Position numbers and translations under genes: made by a program. A model generated the notes under the pieces. That model saw only the letters and a program-made list of their open reading frames with translations, searched no databases and was not told where the DNA came from. A stretch of DNA of 64,000 nt, taken from positions 1 to 64,000 of the forward strand of contig NZ_SWJZ01000017.1 of NCBI RefSeq assembly GCF_005144475.1. The letters are read 5' to 3'. The stretch is from Rhodobacter capsulatus (GTDB taxonomy: Bacteria > Pseudomonadota > Alphaproteobacteria > Rhodobacterales > Rhodobacteraceae). Positions 47,798 through 56,134 of the stretch are shown here, one piece after another. The first letter of the stretch is position 1; each line of letters starts with the position of its first letter.

Positions 47798-49402
47798 TCA
47801 CATGCGGAAGATCCCGAAGCGGGTGGGCTCGATCGGCGCGCAAAGGCTGGCGGAGAGCGACAGCGCCAGCACCTCGCGGGTCTTGCGCGGATCGACGATG
47901 CCGTCATCCCAAAGCCGCGCCGAGGCATAAAGCGGTTGGCTCTGGCGCTCGAACATCTCGAGGGTCGGGCGTTTGAACTCGGCCTCTTCCTCGGCCGACC
48001 AATGCCCGCCCTTGCGCTCGATCCCTTCGCGCTTGACCGTGGCCAGAACGCCCGCCGCCTGTTCGCCGCCCATCACCGAGATGCGCGCATTCGGCCAGCT
48101 CCAGAGGAACCGCGGCGAATAGGCCCGGCCCGCCATGCCGTAATTGCCCGCGCCAAAGGAGCCGCCCACCAGCAGCGTGATCTTTGGCACGTTCGTCGTG
48201 GCGACGGCGGTGACCATCTTGGCGCCGTGCCGGGCGATGCCCTCGTTTTCATATTTGCGCCCGACCATGAAGCCTGTCACATTTTGCAGGAAAACCAAGG
48301 GGATGTTGCGCATCGAGCAGAGCTCGACGAAATGCGCGGCCTTTTGCGCGGCTTCCGAGAAGATCACCCCGTTGTTGGCGATGATCCCCACCGGGCAGCC
48401 TTTCACATGGGCGAAGCCGGTGACGATCGTCTCGCCGAAGCGCGGCTTGAATTCGTCAAAGCGCGAGCCGTCGACCACCCGGGCGATCACCTCGCGGATG
48501 TCATAGGGCGTGCGCAGATCCGCGGGCACGACGCCCAGGATCTCCTCGGGGTCATAGGCCGGGTCTTCGGGGGCCTGCCATTGCACGCTGGCCGGTTTGG
48601 CGCGGTTGAGGTGGCTCACGGCACGGCGGGCGAGCGCCAGCGCATGGGCGTCATCCTCGGCCAGATAATCGGCCACGCCCGACAGCCGCGTGTGCACGTC
48701 GCCGCCGCCAAGGTCTTCGGCGCTGACGACTTCGCCCGTGGCGGCCTTCACCAGCGGCGGACCGGCCAGAAAGATCGTGCCCTGATCCTTCACGATGATC
48801 GTCACATCCGACATCGCGGGCACATAGGCGCCCCCCGCGGTGCAGGAGCCCATGACGACGGCGATCTGGGCAATGCCCTTGGCCGACATCCGCGCCTGAT
48901 TGTAGAAGATGCGGCCGAAATGGTCGCGGTCGGGGAAGACCTCGTCCTGATTGGGCAGGTTGGCGCCGCCCGAGTCCACAAGATAGACGCAGGGCAGCGC
49001 GCAATCTTCCGCAATCTCCTGCGCGCGCAGGTGTTTCTTCACCGTCATCGGGTAATAGGTGCCGCCCTTCACGGTGGCGTCGTTCGCCACCACCATGACC
49101 TCCTGGCCGCTCACCCGGCCGATGCCCGCGATCACCCCGGCGCAGGGCGCGGCACCGTGATACATCCCATGCGCGGCAGTGGCGCCGATCTCGAGGAAGG
49201 GCGAGCCGGGGTCGAGCAGCGCCGCCACCCGTTCCCGTGGCGCCATCTTGCCGCGGGCGACATGGCGTTTCGTCGCCTCAAGCCCGCCCCCGGCGGCGGC
49301 ATGGGCGGCGGCCTCGCGCACCGTTTCCAGCAGCGCCAGATGCGCGGCCCGATTGGCGCGAAAGGTTTCGGAGCTGGGCAGGACGGCGGAAGAGAGCTTC
49401 AT
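47798..49402 (-). CDS. Methylcrotonoyl-CoA carboxylase, beta subunit
   Basis: The carboxyltransferase partner, 534 residues, with two crotonase-like domains. Signature stretches are [20 protein letters not shown] near 110, [16 protein letters not shown] near 185 and the second-domain [20 protein letters not shown] near 345. It transfers carboxyl from biotin to 3-methylcrotonyl-CoA. Its start overlaps the isovaleryl-CoA dehydrogenase stop by four bases; unusually, 150 bp with repeats separates it from the alpha subunit. Confidence 0.95.
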
Positions 49403-50559
49403 TTCGCCCCCAGCAATTCGCGGCCGATCAGCATGCGGCGGATTTCCGAGGTGCCCGCGCCGATCTCCATCAGCTTCGCATCGCGGAACAGGCGGCTCAC
49501 GACCGAGTCATTCAGGAACCCCGCGCCCCCCAGCGCCTGAACCGCCTGATGCGCCTGCACCATCGCCTGCTCGGAGGCATAAAGCACCGTCGCGGCGGCA
49601 TCCTGGCGCGTGACCTCGCCGCGGTCGCAGGCTTTCGCCACCTCGTAGGTATAGGCGCGCGCGGTGTTCGCAGCGACATACATGTCGGCAATCTTCGCCT
49701 GCATCAGCTGGAAATTCCCGATCGGCTGGCCGAACTGCTCGCGCGTTTGCGCATAGGGCACGACCTCGTCCAGACAGGCCATCAGGATCCCCGTGCCGAT
49801 GCCAGAAAGCACCACGCGTTCGTAATCGAGCCCCGACATCAGCACCCGCACGCCTTTCCCCTCGGCGCCCAGCACGTTTTCCGCGGGCACCTCGCAATCG
49901 TCAAAGAACAGCTGCGCCGTGTTCGAGCCGCGCATGCCGAGCTTGTCGAAATGCGCCGAGGTCGAGAACCCCTTCATCCCCTTTTCGATGAGGAAGGCGG
50001 TGATCCCCTTCGAGCCCGCCGCCGGATCGGTTTTCGCATAGACCACCAGCGTATCGGCATCGCAGCCATTGGTGATCCAGTATTTGTGGCCGTTCAGCAC
50101 ATAGACGTCGCCGCGCTTTTCCGCCCGCAGCTTCATGCCCACCACATCCGAGCCCGCGCCCGCTTCACTCATCGCCAGGGCGCCGATCTTCGCCCCCGAA
50201 ACCAGATCGGGCAGGTATTTGCGTTTCTGCTCGGGCGAGCCGTTCAGCTTCAGCTGGTTGACGCAAAGGTTCGAATGCGCCCCGTAGGAGAGCGCGATCG
50301 AGGCCGAAACCCGGGCGATCTCCTCGGTCGCGACGACATGGGCCAGATATCCCATGCCGGACCCGCCGAACTCCTCGGGCACGGTGATGCCCAGAAGACC
50401 CAGCGCCCCCATCTCTGCCCAAAGCTCGTTCGGGAACAGGTTGTCGCGATCGACAGCCGCCGCCATCGGCGCCAGCCGGTCGCGCGCCCAGGCCTGCACC
50501 ATGTCGCGCAGCGCACCGATGTCTTCCCCCAGATCGAACCGCATCGAGCCTGCGAACAT
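49399..50559 (-). CDS. Isovaleryl-CoA dehydrogenase
   Basis: An acyl-CoA dehydrogenase flavoprotein of 386 residues oxidising isovaleryl-CoA to 3-methylcrotonyl-CoA. Diagnostic features are [19 protein letters not shown] near 58-76, [16 protein letters not shown] near 130 and the C-terminal [15 protein letters not shown]. The catalytic glutamate should lie in the [14 protein letters not shown] stretch (Glu in DYE), the isovaleryl-specific position. The ATG at 50559 follows GGGGAGGGGAAG. It is the first gene of the operon. Confidence 0.94.
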
Positions 50560-50770
50560 CTTCCCCTCCCCGGTTATTGAACGCTTGTTCATTTATTTCC
50601 GGACGGGATGATTCCGTCAAGCCGACGTGCCGCAACGTCACTTCGGCGGGGCTCTCTCCGAAAGGATAGGTCGCACGCTTTCGCGCGCCGCCGCTGGCCT
50701 TCCGCGCAGGCGCCAAGGGCGGCGGGCGTTGGTAAATATCTTGTCAAGGATAACGACAGAGAGCCGCGCC
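50560..50770. promoter_or_regulatory. Divergent region upstream of the liu operon
   Basis: A palindrome TGAAC-GCTT-GTTCA at 50578-50591 lies 19 bases upstream of the isovaleryl-CoA dehydrogenase ATG and is a good candidate repressor site, of TetR type by symmetry. Further upstream is CGAAAGGATAGG at 50659-50670, the reverse complement of a 12-mer found at 51904 and 55288. A TTGACA lies near 50738-50743 on the minus strand. Confidence 0.5.
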
Positions 50771-51019
50771 ATGAGCCCGATCGCCACTGCCAGTCAGCAC
50801 GCCTGGATCTATGCCGTGCTGATCGAGATGAACGCTTATTGCCGCAACGAGGGGCTGTCGGAGGTGTCCGCCGCCCTTGCCCGGGCGATCGAGCGGATGG
50901 AGCCGGTGGTGTTTCCGCAGGCCGCCGCGCCGCAACGGCCGCGCCGGGTCTCGCCCTTTTCTTCGCGCGACGAGCGCGTGCAACCGGCGCAGGTGCTGCC
51001 CTTCCCCGGCCGCCGTTGA
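50771..51019 (+). CDS. Small hypothetical protein (82 aa)
   Basis: The frame MSPIATASQHAWIYAVLIEM encodes an N-terminal helical segment of about 50 residues (WIYAVLIEMNAYCRNEGLSE, VSAALARAIERM) followed by a Pro/Arg-rich tail. Family not recognised. The codon pattern (high third-position GC) is coding-like, and the ribosome binding site is poor. It has its own terminator, and its upstream region shares a 12-mer with the neighbouring signalling genes. Confidence 0.6.
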   Translation: MSPIATASQHAWIYAVLIEMNAYCRNEGLSEVSAALARAIERMEPVVFPQAAAPQRPRRVSPFSSRDERVQPAQVLPFPGRR

Positions 51020-51027
51020 CAGGACAA

Positions 51028-51060
51028 GCCGGTCCGCGCCTGACCCATCGGCGGACCGGC
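51028..51060 (+). other. Hairpin after the 82-aa gene
   Basis: GCCGGTCCGC pairs with GCGGACCGGC across 13 bases. No T run follows; the true terminator is probably the next hairpin. Confidence 0.45.
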
Positions 51061-51089
51061 GCGCCGCCGACCCACTCGATCCGGCGGCG

Positions 51090-51115
51090 AAAGGCGGTGC
51101 TTCGGCACCGCCTTT
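51090..51115. terminator. Bidirectional terminator with TTCG loop
   Basis: AAAGGCGGTGC and GCACCGCCTTT form an 11-bp stem closed by TTCG, between the convergent 82-aa gene and the response regulator gene. Confidence 0.85.
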
Positions 51116-51140
51116 GCATTTGAAAGCAGGGGCTTGCCCC

Positions 51141-51761
51141 TTAGAACCAGCCGTTTTCGCGCGCGATCATCGCCGCATGGGTGCGGTTGCGCGCGCCGAT
51201 CTTGCGCGTCAGCGTCCGCACATGCAGCTTCACCGTGACCTCCTGCAGGTCCATCTCGCGGGCGATTTCCTTGTTCGTGCGCCCGGCGCAGAGGCCGCGC
51301 AACACCTCGGTTTCGCGCGCCGTCAGCCCGCCCTGCACCGGCGGCTCCTCCTGCTTGAGAAAGTCGAAGGGCGCAAAGACCGAGCCCGAGGCCATCAGGG
51401 TCACCGCCCCGATGATCGAGCGCGCGGGCATCGCCTTCGGCACGAAGCCGATCGCCCCGGCCTCCAGCGCCTCGCGCGCGGCGGCGGGACGGGCGACGCC
51501 CGAGATGATCGCCACCGCCTGCGCCGGAAAGGCCCGCTTCATCTGCGCAAGGCCCTCGAGCCCGTCCATGCCCGGCATGTCGTAATCGAGCAGCACCAGA
51601 TCGTAGCCGCCCCCCGACTGCACCGCGGCCCGCAGCGCCGCCAGCGCCGCGGGCAGGGTTCCGGCCACGGCAACCTCGTCGCAGCCACCCGCGCGCAACA
51701 GCGCCGCAATAGCATCGCGCACGAGATCATGGTCGTCGGCAATCAGCAATCTCACCTTCAC
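51141..51761 (-). CDS. NarL/FixJ-type response regulator
   Basis: A 206-residue regulator. The receiver domain has acidic D10/D11-type residues (LIADDHDLV), phospho-acceptor Asp59 (VLLDYDMPGMDG) and Lys109 (FVPKAMP). The C-terminal LuxR-type helix-turn-helix (LTARETEVLRGLCAGRTNKE, VTVKLHVRTLTRKIGARNRT) lies at about 143-205. It is divergent from, and 242 bp from, the SUOX-fold/hybrid-kinase pair, which makes those its likely partners. Target sites are unknown; the shared 12-mer is a candidate. Confidence 0.9.
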   Translation of the reverse strand: MKVRLLIADDHDLVRDAIAALLRAGGCDEVAVAGTLPAALAALRAAVQSGGGYDLVLLDYDMPGMDGLEGLAQMKRAFPAQAVAIISGVARPAAAREALEAGAIGFVPKAMPARSIIGAVTLMASGSVFAPFDFLKQEEPPVQGGLTARETEVLRGLCAGRTNKEIAREMDLQEVTVKLHVRTLTRKIGARNRTHAAMIARENGWF

Positions 51762-52003
51762 CTCCGAAAATCTCGGCCCGAGCCTCTCCCGCAGGGGTTG
51801 CGGAAAGGTAATCTTAAAGAAAGCGGGCTATTTCAAGACCGCGACGGGAAGTTTCTGACGTGCTCGCCCTAAGCGTTGCAGAAGTCCCCTATCGAAGGGT
51901 AATCCTATCCTTTCGGATAGGGAAACATACTAAATTCCGCATGGCTTGACCGGAGGGCTATGCGACAATCCCGCGATCGTGCAGGATCCAACGGGGGAAA
52001 GAC
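51762..52003. promoter_or_regulatory. Divergent region of the two-component locus
   Basis: 242 bp containing an inverted repeat CCTATCC-TTTC-GGATAGG at 51904-51921, preceded by CCCTATCGAAGGG. Its first twelve bases (CCTATCCTTTCG) recur at 55288 and, reversed, at 50659. I found no convincing promoter hexamers. Confidence 0.55.
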
Positions 52004-52570
52004 ATGCCTATCTTCACCAAGACGGCCAAGGCCGTGCTGATCCTGAGCCGCTTCCTGCTTGTCGCCGCGGGGCTTGCCCTTCCGGCGCAGGCCGCGCTGG
52101 CCGAGTCGGCGGCCCCGGCCGCCGCAGTCGCGCTGCCCGCACCCACAGGGCCCGTGATGCTGACCGTCACCGGCCGGATCGCGGGAACCGACGGCAGCGG
52201 GATGGCCAGATTCGACGCGGCGATGCTGGCCGCGCTGCCGCGGCGGGAGTTCGCCACCTCGACGATCTGGACCGAGGGCGTGCAACGCTTTTCCGGGGTC
52301 GATCTGCGCAGCCTGATCGATCATCTGGGGGTCACGGGCGGCACGCTGAAGATCACCGCGGTCAACGATTATTCGGTGCAGATCCCGGTCTCGGAGGTGG
52401 TCGCGGGCGGCGCCCTGCTGGCCGACCTGCGCGACGGCAAGCCGATGAAAGTGCGCGACAAGGGCCCGCTCTGGCTTGTGTATCCCTATGACTCTGCGCC
52501 AGAATTCAGAAACGAAGTCGTCTATTCCCGGTCCGTCTGGCAGGTCGACCGGATCGAGGTTCTGCCCTAA
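52004..52570 (+). CDS. Periplasmic protein of molybdopterin-oxidoreductase-like (SUOX) fold
   Basis: A 188-residue protein with a signal peptide (KAVLILSRFLLVAAGLALPA, cleavage near 33) and a domain at about 50-185 resembling the molybdopterin-binding fold of sulfite oxidase (VQRFSGVDLRSLIDHLG, AVNDYSVQIPVSEVV, GPLWLVYPYDSAPEF). It has no cysteine at all, so the cysteine that ligands molybdenum in catalytic members is absent. Directly upstream of a hybrid kinase, it is more likely a periplasmic sensing subunit than an enzyme. GGGGGAAAG precedes the ATG. Confidence 0.85.
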   Translation: MPIFTKTAKAVLILSRFLLVAAGLALPAQAALAESAAPAAAVALPAPTGPVMLTVTGRIAGTDGSGMARFDAAMLAALPRREFATSTIWTEGVQRFSGVDLRSLIDHLGVTGGTLKITAVNDYSVQIPVSEVVAGGALLADLRDGKPMKVRDKGPLWLVYPYDSAPEFRNEVVYSRSVWQVDRIEVLP

Positions 52571-52576
52571 CCCGGG

Positions 52577-55270
52577 GTGCCTGCCCCCTTTCGCATCGGT
52601 TTCATGTCGGACAGTTTCCCCTCGTTTCTCGACTCGCGGCGACGCCTGCGCCCGTTCCTGTTCGCAGGGCTCGTCGTGGTGTTCCTTGGCGCGGTGGGGG
52701 CGCTTTACCGCTACGGCGTGATGGTGCAGTCGGAAATCGACAACCTCGCCATCGCCAATTCCGACAGCCTGCAATGGACGCTGGCGCAGCTTGAGGTGGA
52801 ATATTTCCACATGGACGGGGCGCTGCTGCGCGCCCGCCCCGACGCGCCCGAGACGATGGCGGAATTCGGCCGCAGCTTCGATGTCTTCTACAGCCGCGTG
52901 CACACGATCCTGGAGGGGCGCGGCTTTGCGGCGATCGTCACCCCCGAGGTCGCCGGGCCCGAGATCGGCCGCATCGACGCCTTCCTGCACGAGACCGCAG
53001 AGCTGGTCGATGCCGGCCCCGAAACGTTGGCCCCCGCCCTGCCCGCGCTGCGCGAGCGCGCCGGGGCGCTTGAAAGCGATGTCCGCACGATCTCGCTCGA
53101 AGGCGTGCGCGAATTCGCCAGCCGGGCGATGGCGCAGCGCGAACGGGTGTTTTCCTCGCTGATGCTGCTCGCCTCGCTGACCACGGCGCTTTTGGCGGCG
53201 ATCACCGCGGGGCTGGTGATCACCTGGTCGCTCTGGCGTTTCGGGATGCGGCAGACCGGCTCGCTCTCGGCGGCGAAGGCCCGGCTCGAAGCGGTGATCG
53301 GCACCTCCTTCGACGCGGTGATCGTCGTCGATCACGAGGGCAAGGTCCTGGAATTCAACGGCGCCGCCGAACGGGTCTTCGGCTACAGCCGCGCCGAGGC
53401 GCTGGGGCGGCATCTCAACGACCTGATCGTGCCCGAGGCGATGAAATCGGCGAAAGTGGCGGGGTTCAAGCGCTACCGCACCGGCGGCGTGCCGCGGATC
53501 GCGGGGCATGGGCTGATCGGCCTGCAGGCGCAGCGCAAGGACGGCTCGGTCTTCCCGGCCGAAATTTCGGTGACCGCCACCCGGATCGGCCGCAAGGAAA
53601 TCTTCGTCGGCTACATGCGCGACATCACCGACCGCGTCGCCGCCGAAAAGGAACTGATCGACGCGCGCGATGCGGCGATGGCGGGCGAACAGGCGCAGGC
53701 CGAATTCGTCGCGGTGATGAGCCACGAGATGCGAACCCCGCTGAACGGGCTGCTCGGCACGCTTGAACTCTTGCGCGAAACCCCGCTCGATGCCAGCCAG
53801 ACCGCGCTGCTCGCCTCGATGCAGAAGGCGGGCGAAATCCTTTTGGCGCATGTGAATGACACGCTGGATGTCGAACGGCTCGATGCGGGCAAGCTGTCGC
53901 TGACGCGCGAGCCCTTTGCGCCGATGTCGGTGCTCGACGAGATCGTGCAGATGCAGGCGGGGGCGGCGGCGGCGCGCGGCAACCGGCTGTCGACGCGCAC
54001 CGCGGGACGCCTGCCCGAGGCGGTCGAGGGCGATGCGATGCGGATCCGGCAGGTGCTGCTCAACCTCGTCGGCAATGCGATCAAGTTCACCCGTGACGGC
54101 ACGATCACCCTTGAAGCGGACTATCACCGCGATCAGGGGCTGCTGGAATACCGGGTCATTGACACCGGCATCGGCATTCCCGCGGCCGAGACCGAGCGGA
54201 TCTTCGACGATTTCGTCACCCTCGACCCCGAACTGTCGCGCGAGGCGACGGGATCGGGGCTGGGCCTGTCGATCGCGCGGCGGCTGATGCGGGCGATGCG
54301 CGGCCAGATCGGGGTGGAAAGCGAGCTCGGACAGGGGTCGGCCTTCTGGATCAGCCTGCCCGCGCCGGTGGTGCTGAGCCTGCCCGCCGCGACGCCGCCG
54401 ATGCCGGTCGTGAAGGCGCCCGCGCGCCCCGCCCCCGGTGCGGCCCCCTGTGCCGCCGACGGCAGCCCCGCGCCGCGTCTGTCGACGTCGATCGAGGTGC
54501 TGGTGGTCGAGGACAATGACATCAACCGCGTCGTGCTGTGCGAGATGTTGCGCCGGGCCGGACACAGCATCGCGGAGGCTCGCGACGGCGTCGAGGCGGT
54601 CGAAAAGGCGGCGGAGCGCCGCTATGACGTGATCCTGATCGATCTGAACATGCCGCGGATGAACGGCGTCGATGCGACCGAGGCGATCCGGGCCGGGACC
54701 GGGCCGAACCACGAGACGCCGATCATCGCGGTCACGGCGAATGTCCTGCCCGAGGCGCGCAACCGGCTGGAGGCGGCGGGGGTGTGCCGGGTGATCTCGA
54801 AGCCGATCACCCGCAAGATGCTGGATCAGGTGCTGGCCGAGGAGCTGTGCCCGCGGTTGCGTCAGCGCCCGCTGTCGACCCCGCCCGAGCCCGCCGCGGA
54901 GGCCGGGCTGGCGCTGGTTCAGGCCGAGACTCTGGACGAGCTGGCGCAGTCGCTGGGCCCCGAGATGATGGCGCAGACGCTGCGGCGCTTCCTGACCGAG
55001 GGCACGGAGATGATCGCCGCGCTGACGCGGGCGGCGGCGCAGGATCGCCCCGCCGAAACCGCGGCGCTGGCGCATAAATTCGCCGGTTCGGCGGCGCTTC
55101 TGGGGGCGGAACGGCTGCATCATCGGCTCAAGGCGATCGAGGTGGCGCTGCGGATCGCCGCGCCGGGAACCGCCCCCGATGCGGCGACGCTGGCCGCCCT
55201 TGACGCGCTTGGCGCGCTTTGGACCGAGACCCGGACCCGGCTTGAAACGGCCGCCGCGTCCCAGGGCTGA
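52577..55270 (+). CDS. Hybrid sensor histidine kinase (PAS-HisKA-HATPase-REC-HPt)
   Basis: An 897-residue kinase. Order: membrane helix (26-46), periplasmic helical domain (47-190), second helix (193-220), PAS (235-355), HisKA with His383 in MSHEMRTPLNG, ATPase domain with LLNLVGNAIKF (494-504), DTGIGIP (529-535) and GSGLGLSI (559-566), receiver with Asp689 (LIDLNMPRMNG) and Lys742, and an HPt with His833 (LAHKFAGSAALLG). The HPt could pass phosphate to the response regulator at 51 kb. The start is GTG 52577, or ATG 52604; neither has a clear ribosome binding site, which fits translational coupling to the SUOX-fold gene six bases upstream. Confidence 0.93.
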   Translation: MPAPFRIGFMSDSFPSFLDSRRRLRPFLFAGLVVVFLGAVGALYRYGVMVQSEIDNLAIANSDSLQWTLAQLEVEYFHMDGALLRARPDAPETMAEFGRSFDVFYSRVHTILEGRGFAAIVTPEVAGPEIGRIDAFLHETAELVDAGPETLAPALPALRERAGALESDVRTISLEGVREFASRAMAQRERVFSSLMLLASLTTALLAAITAGLVITWSLWRFGMRQTGSLSAAKARLEAVIGTSFDAVIVVDHEGKVLEFNGAAERVFGYSRAEALGRHLNDLIVPEAMKSAKVAGFKRYRTGGVPRIAGHGLIGLQAQRKDGSVFPAEISVTATRIGRKEIFVGYMRDITDRVAAEKELIDARDAAMAGEQAQAEFVAVMSHEMRTPLNGLLGTLELLRETPLDASQTALLASMQKAGEILLAHVNDTLDVERLDAGKLSLTREPFAPMSVLDEIVQMQAGAAAARGNRLSTRTAGRLPEAVEGDAMRIRQVLLNLVGNAIKFTRDGTITLEADYHRDQGLLEYRVIDTGIGIPAAETERIFDDFVTLDPELSREATGSGLGLSIARRLMRAMRGQIGVESELGQGSAFWISLPAPVVLSLPAATPPMPVVKAPARPAPGAAPCAADGSPAPRLSTSIEVLVVEDNDINRVVLCEMLRRAGHSIAEARDGVEAVEKAAERRYDVILIDLNMPRMNGVDATEAIRAGTGPNHETPIIAVTANVLPEARNRLEAAGVCRVISKPITRKMLDQVLAEELCPRLRQRPLSTPPEPAAEAGLALVQAETLDELAQSLGPEMMAQTLRRFLTEGTEMIAALTRAAAQDRPAETAALAHKFAGSAALLGAERLHHRLKAIEVALRIAAPGTAPDAATLAALDALGALWTETRTRLETAAASQG

Positions 55271-55287
55271 GCGCATGGCGCCACGGA

Positions 55288-55368
55288 CCTATCCTTTCGC
55301 GTGCGCTGTCATCCCTCCGACACATTGCCCGGATTCCCTAACGGCAATTAACCTTGCACGCAGGTTAA
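55288..55368 (+). promoter_or_regulatory. 12-mer and TTAACCT inverted repeat upstream of the receiver-like gene
   Basis: CCTATCCTTTCG at 55288-55299 is the third copy of the locus 12-mer; together with the two bases before it, it is identical to the 50659 copy over 14 bases. TTAACCT (55348-55354) and AGGTTAA (55362-55368) form an inverted repeat with a seven-base spacer 17 bases before the ATG, a plausible repressor site. Confidence 0.5.
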
Positions 55369-55384
55369 GCACTGGGAGGGCCGC

Positions 55385-56134
55385 ATGGTCTGGACGCATT
55401 CATCCGCGCAACCCGTCGCGACGGCGGCGGTTATCGGGCCCTGGCTCGGCCGGATCCTGATCCGGCTGCGCGCCGCGTTCAGCCCGGCACCGACCGCTTC
55501 GGGCTGGCCCGCCGTGGTGATCGCCGCCGCCGATCAGCCGCACGGGAGCGGCGGCGCGACGCCCGGCATCCGCCTTCAGCGTATCGGTCGCAGCGCCGCG
55601 CCGGCGCATGAGCTTGCCCCGCCCCGGCCCGAGTCGCCTTCGGCCCTCTCCCCGGGCGCCGCCCCGACGGGGTCCGCCACCGCGCCGGTCGCGGGCGCCG
55701 CCCGCTTTTACGGCCTCGACGCGGATTCGATCTCGGTCGTCTATGTCCTGTCGCATCGCGGCGGCGCGGGGCTGACCTGCCTCGACTGGCTGGCCGATCA
55801 CGGCCTGCCGTTCCGCCGCATCGGCGCGCTGCACCCGACCGCGCCGGTCTGGTCGGCACCGCAGGGCGCGTTGCTGCTCGTCGATCTCGACACGCTGGGC
55901 GGGATGTCGGAAATGGCCGAGCCGCTGATGCGGCTGCGGCTGGGCCGCCCCGACATCGCGGTGGTGCTGCTGAGCGAAGAGGTCGAGACGCATGATTTCG
56001 GCACCGAGCGGCTGGTGCTGGCCGATATCACGCTGCGCCTGCCCTGCGCTTTCGCCAGTTTCGAATTCGCGCTGGCCGAGGCGCCGATCAACAATGCCGC
56101 CTGGCAGGAGCGGCTTCTGGGTGATCAGCGCTGA
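55385..56134 (+). CDS. Receiver-like hypothetical protein (249 aa)
   Basis: Not a recognised family. The first 110 residues are low-complexity (Ala, Pro, Ser). Residues 110-245 look like a degenerate receiver domain: a beta strand (SISVVYVLSHR), GALLLVDLDTLGGMSEMAEP at the phospho-acceptor position, then RPDIAVVLLSEEVETHDF. LVDLD could supply an aspartate, but the MPxMDG turn is missing. GGGAGGG precedes the ATG. It follows the hybrid kinase and may be a target or adaptor of that system. The stop overlaps the convergent aminotransferase gene by ten bases. Confidence 0.65.
   Translation: MVWTHSSAQPVATAAVIGPWLGRILIRLRAAFSPAPTASGWPAVVIAAADQPHGSGGATPGIRLQRIGRSAAPAHELAPPRPESPSALSPGAAPTGSATAPVAGAARFYGLDADSISVVYVLSHRGGAGLTCLDWLADHGLPFRRIGALHPTAPVWSAPQGALLLVDLDTLGGMSEMAEPLMRLRLGRPDIAVVLLSEEVETHDFGTERLVLADITLRLPCAFASFEFALAEAPINNAAWQERLLGDQR

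Follow-up and report, generated by a model that had tools for sequence, protein, structure and literature searches.

Organization of the block and recurrence of the 12-mer

The DNA analyzed here (the window) comprises positions 1 to 64,000 of contig NZ_SWJZ01000017.1 from Rhodobacter capsulatus (RefSeq assembly GCF_005144475.1). It harbors a signaling block made up, in order, of genes for an acyl-CoA dehydrogenase (- strand), an 82-codon open reading frame (ORF; +), a regulator with receiver and GerE domains (-), an Oxidored_molyb-like protein, whose gene is here termed pruR (+), a hybrid kinase (+), a 249-aa protein (+) and a DegT aminotransferase (-). Three intergenic regions of this block carry the same 12-mer, CCTATCCTTTCG, exactly where an earlier note on this DNA had located it, and these three places are referred to here as sites 1, 2 and 3 (Table 1).

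The same note had argued that three copies are unlikely by chance, and both shuffling and a look-elsewhere test on Markov windows bear this out. The three copies in the window compare with a mean of 0.01 expected, and none of 100 shuffles reaches three. In the look-elsewhere test, which takes 60 third-order Markov windows as background and allows for the free choice of word, 11 12-mers occur at least three times within 5 kb in the window, versus a mean of 2.7 (maximum 8) in the simulated ones; when only words with at least six A or T are considered, two 12-mers remain, the reported one and one other, against a mean of 0.017 and a maximum of 1. Across the whole genome (4,224,534 bases in 170 contigs) there are four exact copies, versus none for the reversed control, and 31 places with at most one mismatch, versus 13. 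The fourth exact copy lies outside the window and inside an ORF that we take to be mreD-like; with one copy out of four in an ORF, the 12-mer is not common in coding DNA.

At site 2 the 12-mer is one half of a perfect 18-bp (base pair) palindrome, CCTATCC-TTTC-GGATAGG, which confirms the inverted repeat proposed earlier, and the 14 bases common to sites 1 and 3 are GACCTATCCTTTCG. The 12-mer corresponds to the left arm and spacer of an 18-20 bp palindrome, ACCTATCC-NWWN-GGATAGGT. Its placement near gene starts also holds, with gaps to the ATG of 99 bp for the acyl-CoA dehydrogenase (start taken at 50559), 88 bp for pruR and 85 bp for the gene at 55385; the gene divergent from the regulator, however, is pruR and not the kinase gene, as had been supposed, the latter being second in the operon.

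A genome-wide count of the palindrome with at most two mismatches yielded nine places, two of which are sites 1 and 2. By a heuristic based on ORF length and codon usage, three of the other seven lie inside ORFs and four between them (C64:16669, with one mismatch, C110:2862, C112:21365 and C160:69880), so that a wider regulon in this genome is conceivable. Elsewhere in this genome, CCTATCCAAAAAGACAGG (L066, 1501-1518, on C110) is found 77 bp ahead of a small gene that, by eye, resembles an XRE-type helix-turn-helix (HTH) regulator, the intergenic DNA there being AT-rich, and CCTGTCCTTTCG appears twice, 15 bp apart, at C113:18485-18511, a region that the ORF heuristic classifies as intergenic.

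Conservation of the palindrome in the Rhodobacteraceae

Relatives of pruR were detected in 172 of 295 genomes of the family, and phylogenetic footprinting was carried out on loci selected by having a pruR match. A first set of 61 loci consisted of our own and 60 fetched in E-value order, with the omission of one on a 3-kb contig and of some further down the list. The best palindrome in the 400 bp preceding pruR had no mismatches in 16 of these loci, one in 12 and two in 11 (39/61); for 60 permuted palindromes, the number of loci reaching the two-mismatch threshold averaged 0.03 (maximum 1). For a second set, 80 named loci (the best 80 of 579) were added, and the removal from the resulting 141, in a single step, of near-identical loci and of any without a pruR match left 128, among which L160 and G395 count as one witness, being in all probability a single record. 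A copy with at most two mismatches is present upstream of pruR in 84 of the 128 loci, versus an average of 0.2 for 50 permuted palindromes.

A count that presupposes no motif leads to the same element. The commonest 7-mer upstream of pruR is CCTATCC (75 of 128 loci, versus no more than 28 in any of 20 shuffled sets). Among 6-bp inverted repeats, the most frequent one, in 49 loci, has CTATCC arms separated by four bases, and the six that rank behind it represent this palindrome, either shifted in register or with the arms in the opposite order. The two bases in the middle of the spacer are A or T in at least 79 of the 84 sites; per-column base counts are too sharp because these sites were pre-chosen at no more than two mismatches, a choice that the motif-free count avoids. 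Sites are likewise found around the regulator gene, with 29 upstream of it and 41 just downstream among the 128 loci (control 0.12 and 0.08), and those just downstream appear mostly to serve the next gene.

Perfect palindromes occur in 51 of 394 genomes of the family (66 places, counted by eye), versus one genome for the reversed control. Over the 295 genomes searched for both elements, with genome lists read off listings, pruR is present in 32 of the 34 genomes with a perfect palindrome and in 140 of the 261 without (Fisher 1.1e-6). Outside the family, the NWWN form was found in one of 237 sampled genomes, and the control also in one. Among 30 perfect palindromes whose surroundings were opened, 13 lie within 1.5 kb of the system or of exopolysaccharide (EPS) genes, a split counted by eye. 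Two loci from two other genera (L081 and L090, 1501-1518) carry a perfect CCTATCC-N4-GGATAGG in matching positions next to similar genes, at a distance from the pruR system.

The PruR-type sensor and its partner kinase

The product of the gene at 52004 matches the sulfite-oxidase-like fold of PDB 7kos with 42% identity and a TM-score of 0.93 by target (model mean pLDDT 82.5); it matches a PruR profile with an E-value of 4.4e-52 and, weakly, Oxidored_molyb in Pfam. PruR proteins are described in PMC13259868 as having no molybdenum-ligating cysteine, with a tryptophan instead. The 52004 protein is free of cysteine and its W89 is invariant in two alignments (27 and 26 sequences), this residue being assumed, without superposition, to be the PruR tryptophan; as regards the periplasmic location of PruR proteins, its N-terminus is hydrophobic by eye. 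Hence, the 52004 product appears to be a PruR-type pterin-binding protein and would take part in pterin sensing.

The hybrid sensor kinase gene follows pruR directly on the same strand, and a kinase relative was found in 121 of the 128 loci. The WX7E motif of its periplasmic domain, represented here by WTLAQLEVE, is present in 104 of 119 loci, whereas a control stretch of the same length farther along contains it in 12 of 119. The pair formed by the pruR-type gene and the downstream hybrid kinase fits the PruR-DTB systems of PMC13259868. The product of 51141-51761, with its receiver and its GerE/LuxR HTH domain, belongs to the NarL/FixJ family.

Regulator subtypes and exopolysaccharide genes

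On the basis of its HTH, the regulator in the 128 loci falls into type A (EPT..NRTQ, 63 loci), type B (EVT..NRTH, as here, 43 loci) and other forms (8 loci), with none detected in 14 loci, and most rows of both main subtypes have E-x-T-[VI]-K-L in common within the HTH. The pruR site is present in 55 of 63 type A loci versus 20 of 43 type B loci. At least two EPS genes are found in the fetched stretch of 41 of the 128 loci, 40 of type A and none of type B. By Pfam these genes encode a fusion of WecG with a sugar transferase (the priming transferase), a polysaccharide export protein, a flippase-type protein and a fourth protein with only a sub-threshold GNVR match. Palindromes lie no more than 400 bp upstream of the priming transferase gene in 21 of 44 loci, of the export gene in 26 of 38, of the flippase-type gene in 31 of 38 and of the fourth gene in 33 of 39; these distances use projected starts, and a single divergent site is often common to the export and flippase genes. 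In G006, the palindrome on the EPS side and the best pruR match are on different contigs, and a weaker pruR match is on a third.

Promoter architecture and conservation of the three sites

In the aligned pruR promoters, a second element, TATCCC (at least 5 of 6 matches), is located exactly 20 bp from the first arm of the palindrome (+20) in 36 of 84 cases and at +21 in 9 of 84, versus 0-2 at each of 39 other positions tried. In the columns that follow it, TG at 39-40, G59 and A62 are partly conserved across the 84 loci and form -35- and -10-like columns, and positions 43-55 are not conserved. This arrangement would correspond to two regulator dimers upstream of an extended -10 promoter.

The window was scored with a matrix whose training set, 82 other loci, included neither this genome nor R. 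capsulatus. As palindromes, the places at 51904 and 50653 obtained the two highest scores (29.9 and 20.6), the best place outside the three sites reached 10.5, and that at 55288 ranked seventh with 6.2. As half-sites under the same matrix, the three reported places are the best in the 64 kb, site 3 being joint best. The closest named relative found, R. capsulatus DSM 1710 (97% identity in the PruR-type protein and about 93% in DNA), keeps all three 12-mers; the left arms of sites 1 and 3 are kept between this genome and R. capsulatus, and the right arm of site 1 differs.

The whole gene order is common to seven Rhodobacter genomes, our own included. Site 2 is perfect in the four closest of these (again including our own) and has two mismatches in G401. 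The position of site 1 is palindrome-like, with three mismatches, in both G408 and G396. The left arm of site 3 reads CTATCC or CTATAC in all seven aligned genomes, amid diverged sequence, and the CATCCC at +20 of this site, an offset that matches that of TATCCC downstream of the pruR palindrome in relatives, is unchanged in four. Within the genus, a pruR site with at most two mismatches is present in 9 of 16 loci. Of the three, site 2 is solid; sites 1 and 3 are barely more than half-sites, of which site 1, whose geometry like that of site 3 was read by eye, represents the weakest case.

Table 1. Coordinates of the three sites, of neighboring elements and of the genes of the block in the window.
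Feature	Position	Strand	Remarks
Acyl-CoA dehydrogenase gene, possible target of site 1	49399..50559	-	Pfam Acyl-CoA_dh domains
Site 1, degenerate palindrome CCTATCCTTTCGGAGAGA	50653..50670	-	12-mer at 50659-50670 (-)
NarL/FixJ-type response regulator gene (receiver + GerE), proposed binder of the sites	51141..51761	-	Pfam Response_reg 4.4e-21, GerE 9.8e-18
Site 2, perfect palindrome, proposed primary operator of the pruR-kinase operon	51904..51921	.	Holds the 12-mer at 51904-51915 (+)
Weak counterpart of the second element, downstream of site 2	51926..51938	+	Positions 23-35 of the aligned promoters; poor match, by eye
Proposed promoter of the pruR operon	51941..51969	+	-35 near 51941-51946; extended -10 TGC-GACAAT at 51961-51969
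pruR, PruR-type pterin-binding protein (sulfite-oxidase fold, no cysteine)	52004..52570	+	Structure match and profile
DTB-type hybrid sensor kinase gene	52577..55270	+	WX7E, PAS, HisKA, HATPase, receiver and Hpt; Pfam domains; WTLAQLEVE at residue 67
Site 3, half-site and spacer, right arm not palindromic	55288..55305	+	12-mer at 55288-55299 (+)
CATCCC, possible second half-site, 20 bp past the first arm of site 3	55310..55315	+	Position by eye
Gene for 249-aa protein of unknown family, proposed target of site 3	55385..56134	+	Syntenic in seven Rhodobacter genomes, own included

The protein encoded at 55385 has no Pfam match and its structure prediction, based on two sequences, is poor (mean pLDDT 33.4). 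Directly upstream of its gene, at 55348-55368, lies another perfect palindrome, TTAACCT-N7-AGGTTAA, which has no other perfect copy in this genome and whose arms are nearly unchanged in the seven aligned Rhodobacter genomes; a different regulator may use it as an operator that overlaps the promoter. On the side of site 1, the palindrome-like TGAACG-CT-TGTTCA at 50578-50591 lies between the acyl-CoA dehydrogenase start and a -35-like GCTTGAC, with TGAACG and GTTCA kept in seven aligned genomes, and it resembles a TetR-type operator. Site 1 is also about 100 bp from the small + strand ORF (50771-51019), which has no Pfam match and is present in the seven Rhodobacter genomes, our own included; as a candidate for a conserved member of the regulon this ORF was rejected, no convincing relative having been found beside the other loci.

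Interpretation and alternative explanations

From these results it seems likely that the 12-mer is part of the operator of the neighboring NarL/FixJ regulator, linked to the PruR-DTB pair and acting on the pruR-kinase operon and its neighbor here and on EPS genes in relatives. The suggestion of the earlier note, that the NarL-type regulator may bind here or that the word may belong to a local regulon, is supported: the 12-mer is not common in coding DNA and the element is conserved upstream of pruR orthologues, the opposite of the two outcomes that the note had named as refuting it. Beyond that suggestion, the full site is a palindrome, its neighbor encodes a sensor of the pterin-binding type and the same site precedes polysaccharide genes in relatives. 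Under the mechanism that we propose, an upstream signal, possibly a pterin, would be read by the PruR-type protein together with the hybrid kinase, and phosphate would pass along a His-Asp-His(Hpt)-Asp route to the regulator, a phosphorylated dimer of which would bind the operator and presumably activate rather than repress transcription. In this genome the perfect copy would drive the pruR-kinase operon, in positive autoregulation, and the half-sites would act on the 55385 gene and perhaps also on the acyl-CoA dehydrogenase gene or the small ORF; many relatives carry the same palindrome in front of EPS genes.

Several observations weigh against this interpretation. A site with at most two mismatches is lacking in 44 of the 128 loci, including 23 of the 43 with the regulator subtype of this genome, and in 7 of 16 loci of the genus; six other genomes share this gene order, and two of them (G406 and G394) have no pruR site. 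The +20 element is rare at EPS genes (2/25, 0/31, 2/33 and 3/31, with at least 5 of 6 matches), and the confidence expressed above has been lowered slightly on account of this rarity and of those two genomes. The control with arms in inverted order, GGATAGG-N4-CCTATCC, is not empty in the first set (2 of 61 loci, with two mismatches). Just behind the kinase gene there are only three sites in the 128 loci (control 0.12; 41 sites elsewhere, control about 2.8), so that the family as a whole does not have a site at position 3. Site 1 has no TATCCC element and its -35-like box is, by eye, 13 bp further off, so that either the dehydrogenase gene or the small ORF may be its target. A sigma-70 consensus scan found no promoter in the region, which makes the location of the pruR promoter in Table 1 a proposed one.

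The poor right arms of sites 1 and 3 also count here, and they bear on a narrower reading, compatible with the one preferred, in which only site 2 works and the other two are decayed or chance half-sites. The low score of site 3 as a palindrome, the variable right arm of site 1 and the scarcity of sites behind the kinase elsewhere would all agree with it; the retention of both left arms in R. capsulatus, half-site scores that are the best of the 64 kb, the constancy of the left arm of site 3 in seven genomes and of its CATCCC in four, and the palindrome-like site 1 of G408 and G396 point the other way, and we regard such decay as possible but rather doubtful. It appears less probable still that a conserved regulator other than the adjacent one controls the PruR-DTB and EPS genes through the palindrome. 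The adjacent regulator is itself a deduced binder, the site is still present in 7 of the 14 loci with no detected regulator nearby, and the remaining 17 of the 30 opened palindromes have neither the system nor EPS genes in the 1.5 kb shown; against this stand the association of site and system across genomes, the near absence of the site outside the family and the sites that flank the regulator gene itself. Moreover, an 18-20 bp palindrome suits a NarL/FixJ dimer.

Two further possibilities carry very little weight. The similar distances to gene starts (85-99 bp) might denote a promoter hexamer for an alternative sigma factor, but the element is palindromic, promoter-like columns lie 30-60 bp downstream of it and the genome holds only four exact copies of the 12-mer, all of which makes this proposal very improbable. 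Even harder to credit is an RNA element or terminator: the site 2 hairpin has a folding energy of -11.2 kcal/mol (z -2.55), but sites 1 and 3 fold no better than shuffles (z -0.46 and -0.16), base sequence and not pairing alone recurs across loci, and the sites lie upstream of promoter-like columns. A terminator scan of 50540-55400 returned none, the combination of a GC stem and a T run that defines Rho-independent terminators being absent.

Relation to known systems

Returning to the NarL/FixJ regulator as the binder, operators of this family include that of ComA (TTGCGG-N4-CCGCAA) and the 7-2-7 heptamers of NarL. The element reported here shares with them an 18-20 bp palindrome upstream of the -35 region and tandem half-sites, and differs in its base sequence, CCTATCC-N4-GGATAGG, an operator named in none of the papers found in the literature searched, although one may exist. 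There is about an even chance, in our judgment, that CCTATCC-NWWN-GGATAGG is a family-wide operator through which a pterin-sensing phosphorelay of PruR, DTB kinase and NarL/FixJ regulator switches EPS transcription, in parallel to the cyclic di-GMP (c-di-GMP) route of PruR-DcpA, and that in the Rhodobacter capsulatus lineage this switch now serves a small local regulon instead.

The PruR-DcpA system of Agrobacterium tumefaciens (PMC13259868; PDB 7kos) shares with the present one the PruR fold, at the identity given above, and a link to polysaccharide; its partner protein makes and breaks c-di-GMP, whereas the partner here is a kinase that presumably acts via transcription. PruR-linked sensor kinases are reported as widespread (PMC13259868), and the locus has in common with the PruR-DTB systems described there that pruR precedes the gene for a TorS-like sensor kinase, which has PAS, a receiver and a periplasmic domain with WX7E; the kinase studied here has an Hpt domain in addition. 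The sections of PMC13259868 consulted describe no output regulator, operator or targets for PruR-DTB, and the terms "response regulator", "exopolysaccharide" and "regulon" have no occurrences in its text; a NarL/FixJ regulator, an operator and EPS or local targets are proposed here. A short, computable operator would make the targets of PruR-DTB predictable genome by genome and would offer a reporter for pterins as extracellular signals. It would also tie the pathway to polysaccharide, and hence perhaps to attachment, in an abundant bacterial family, and would provide a testable output for this recently described pterin-sensing pathway.

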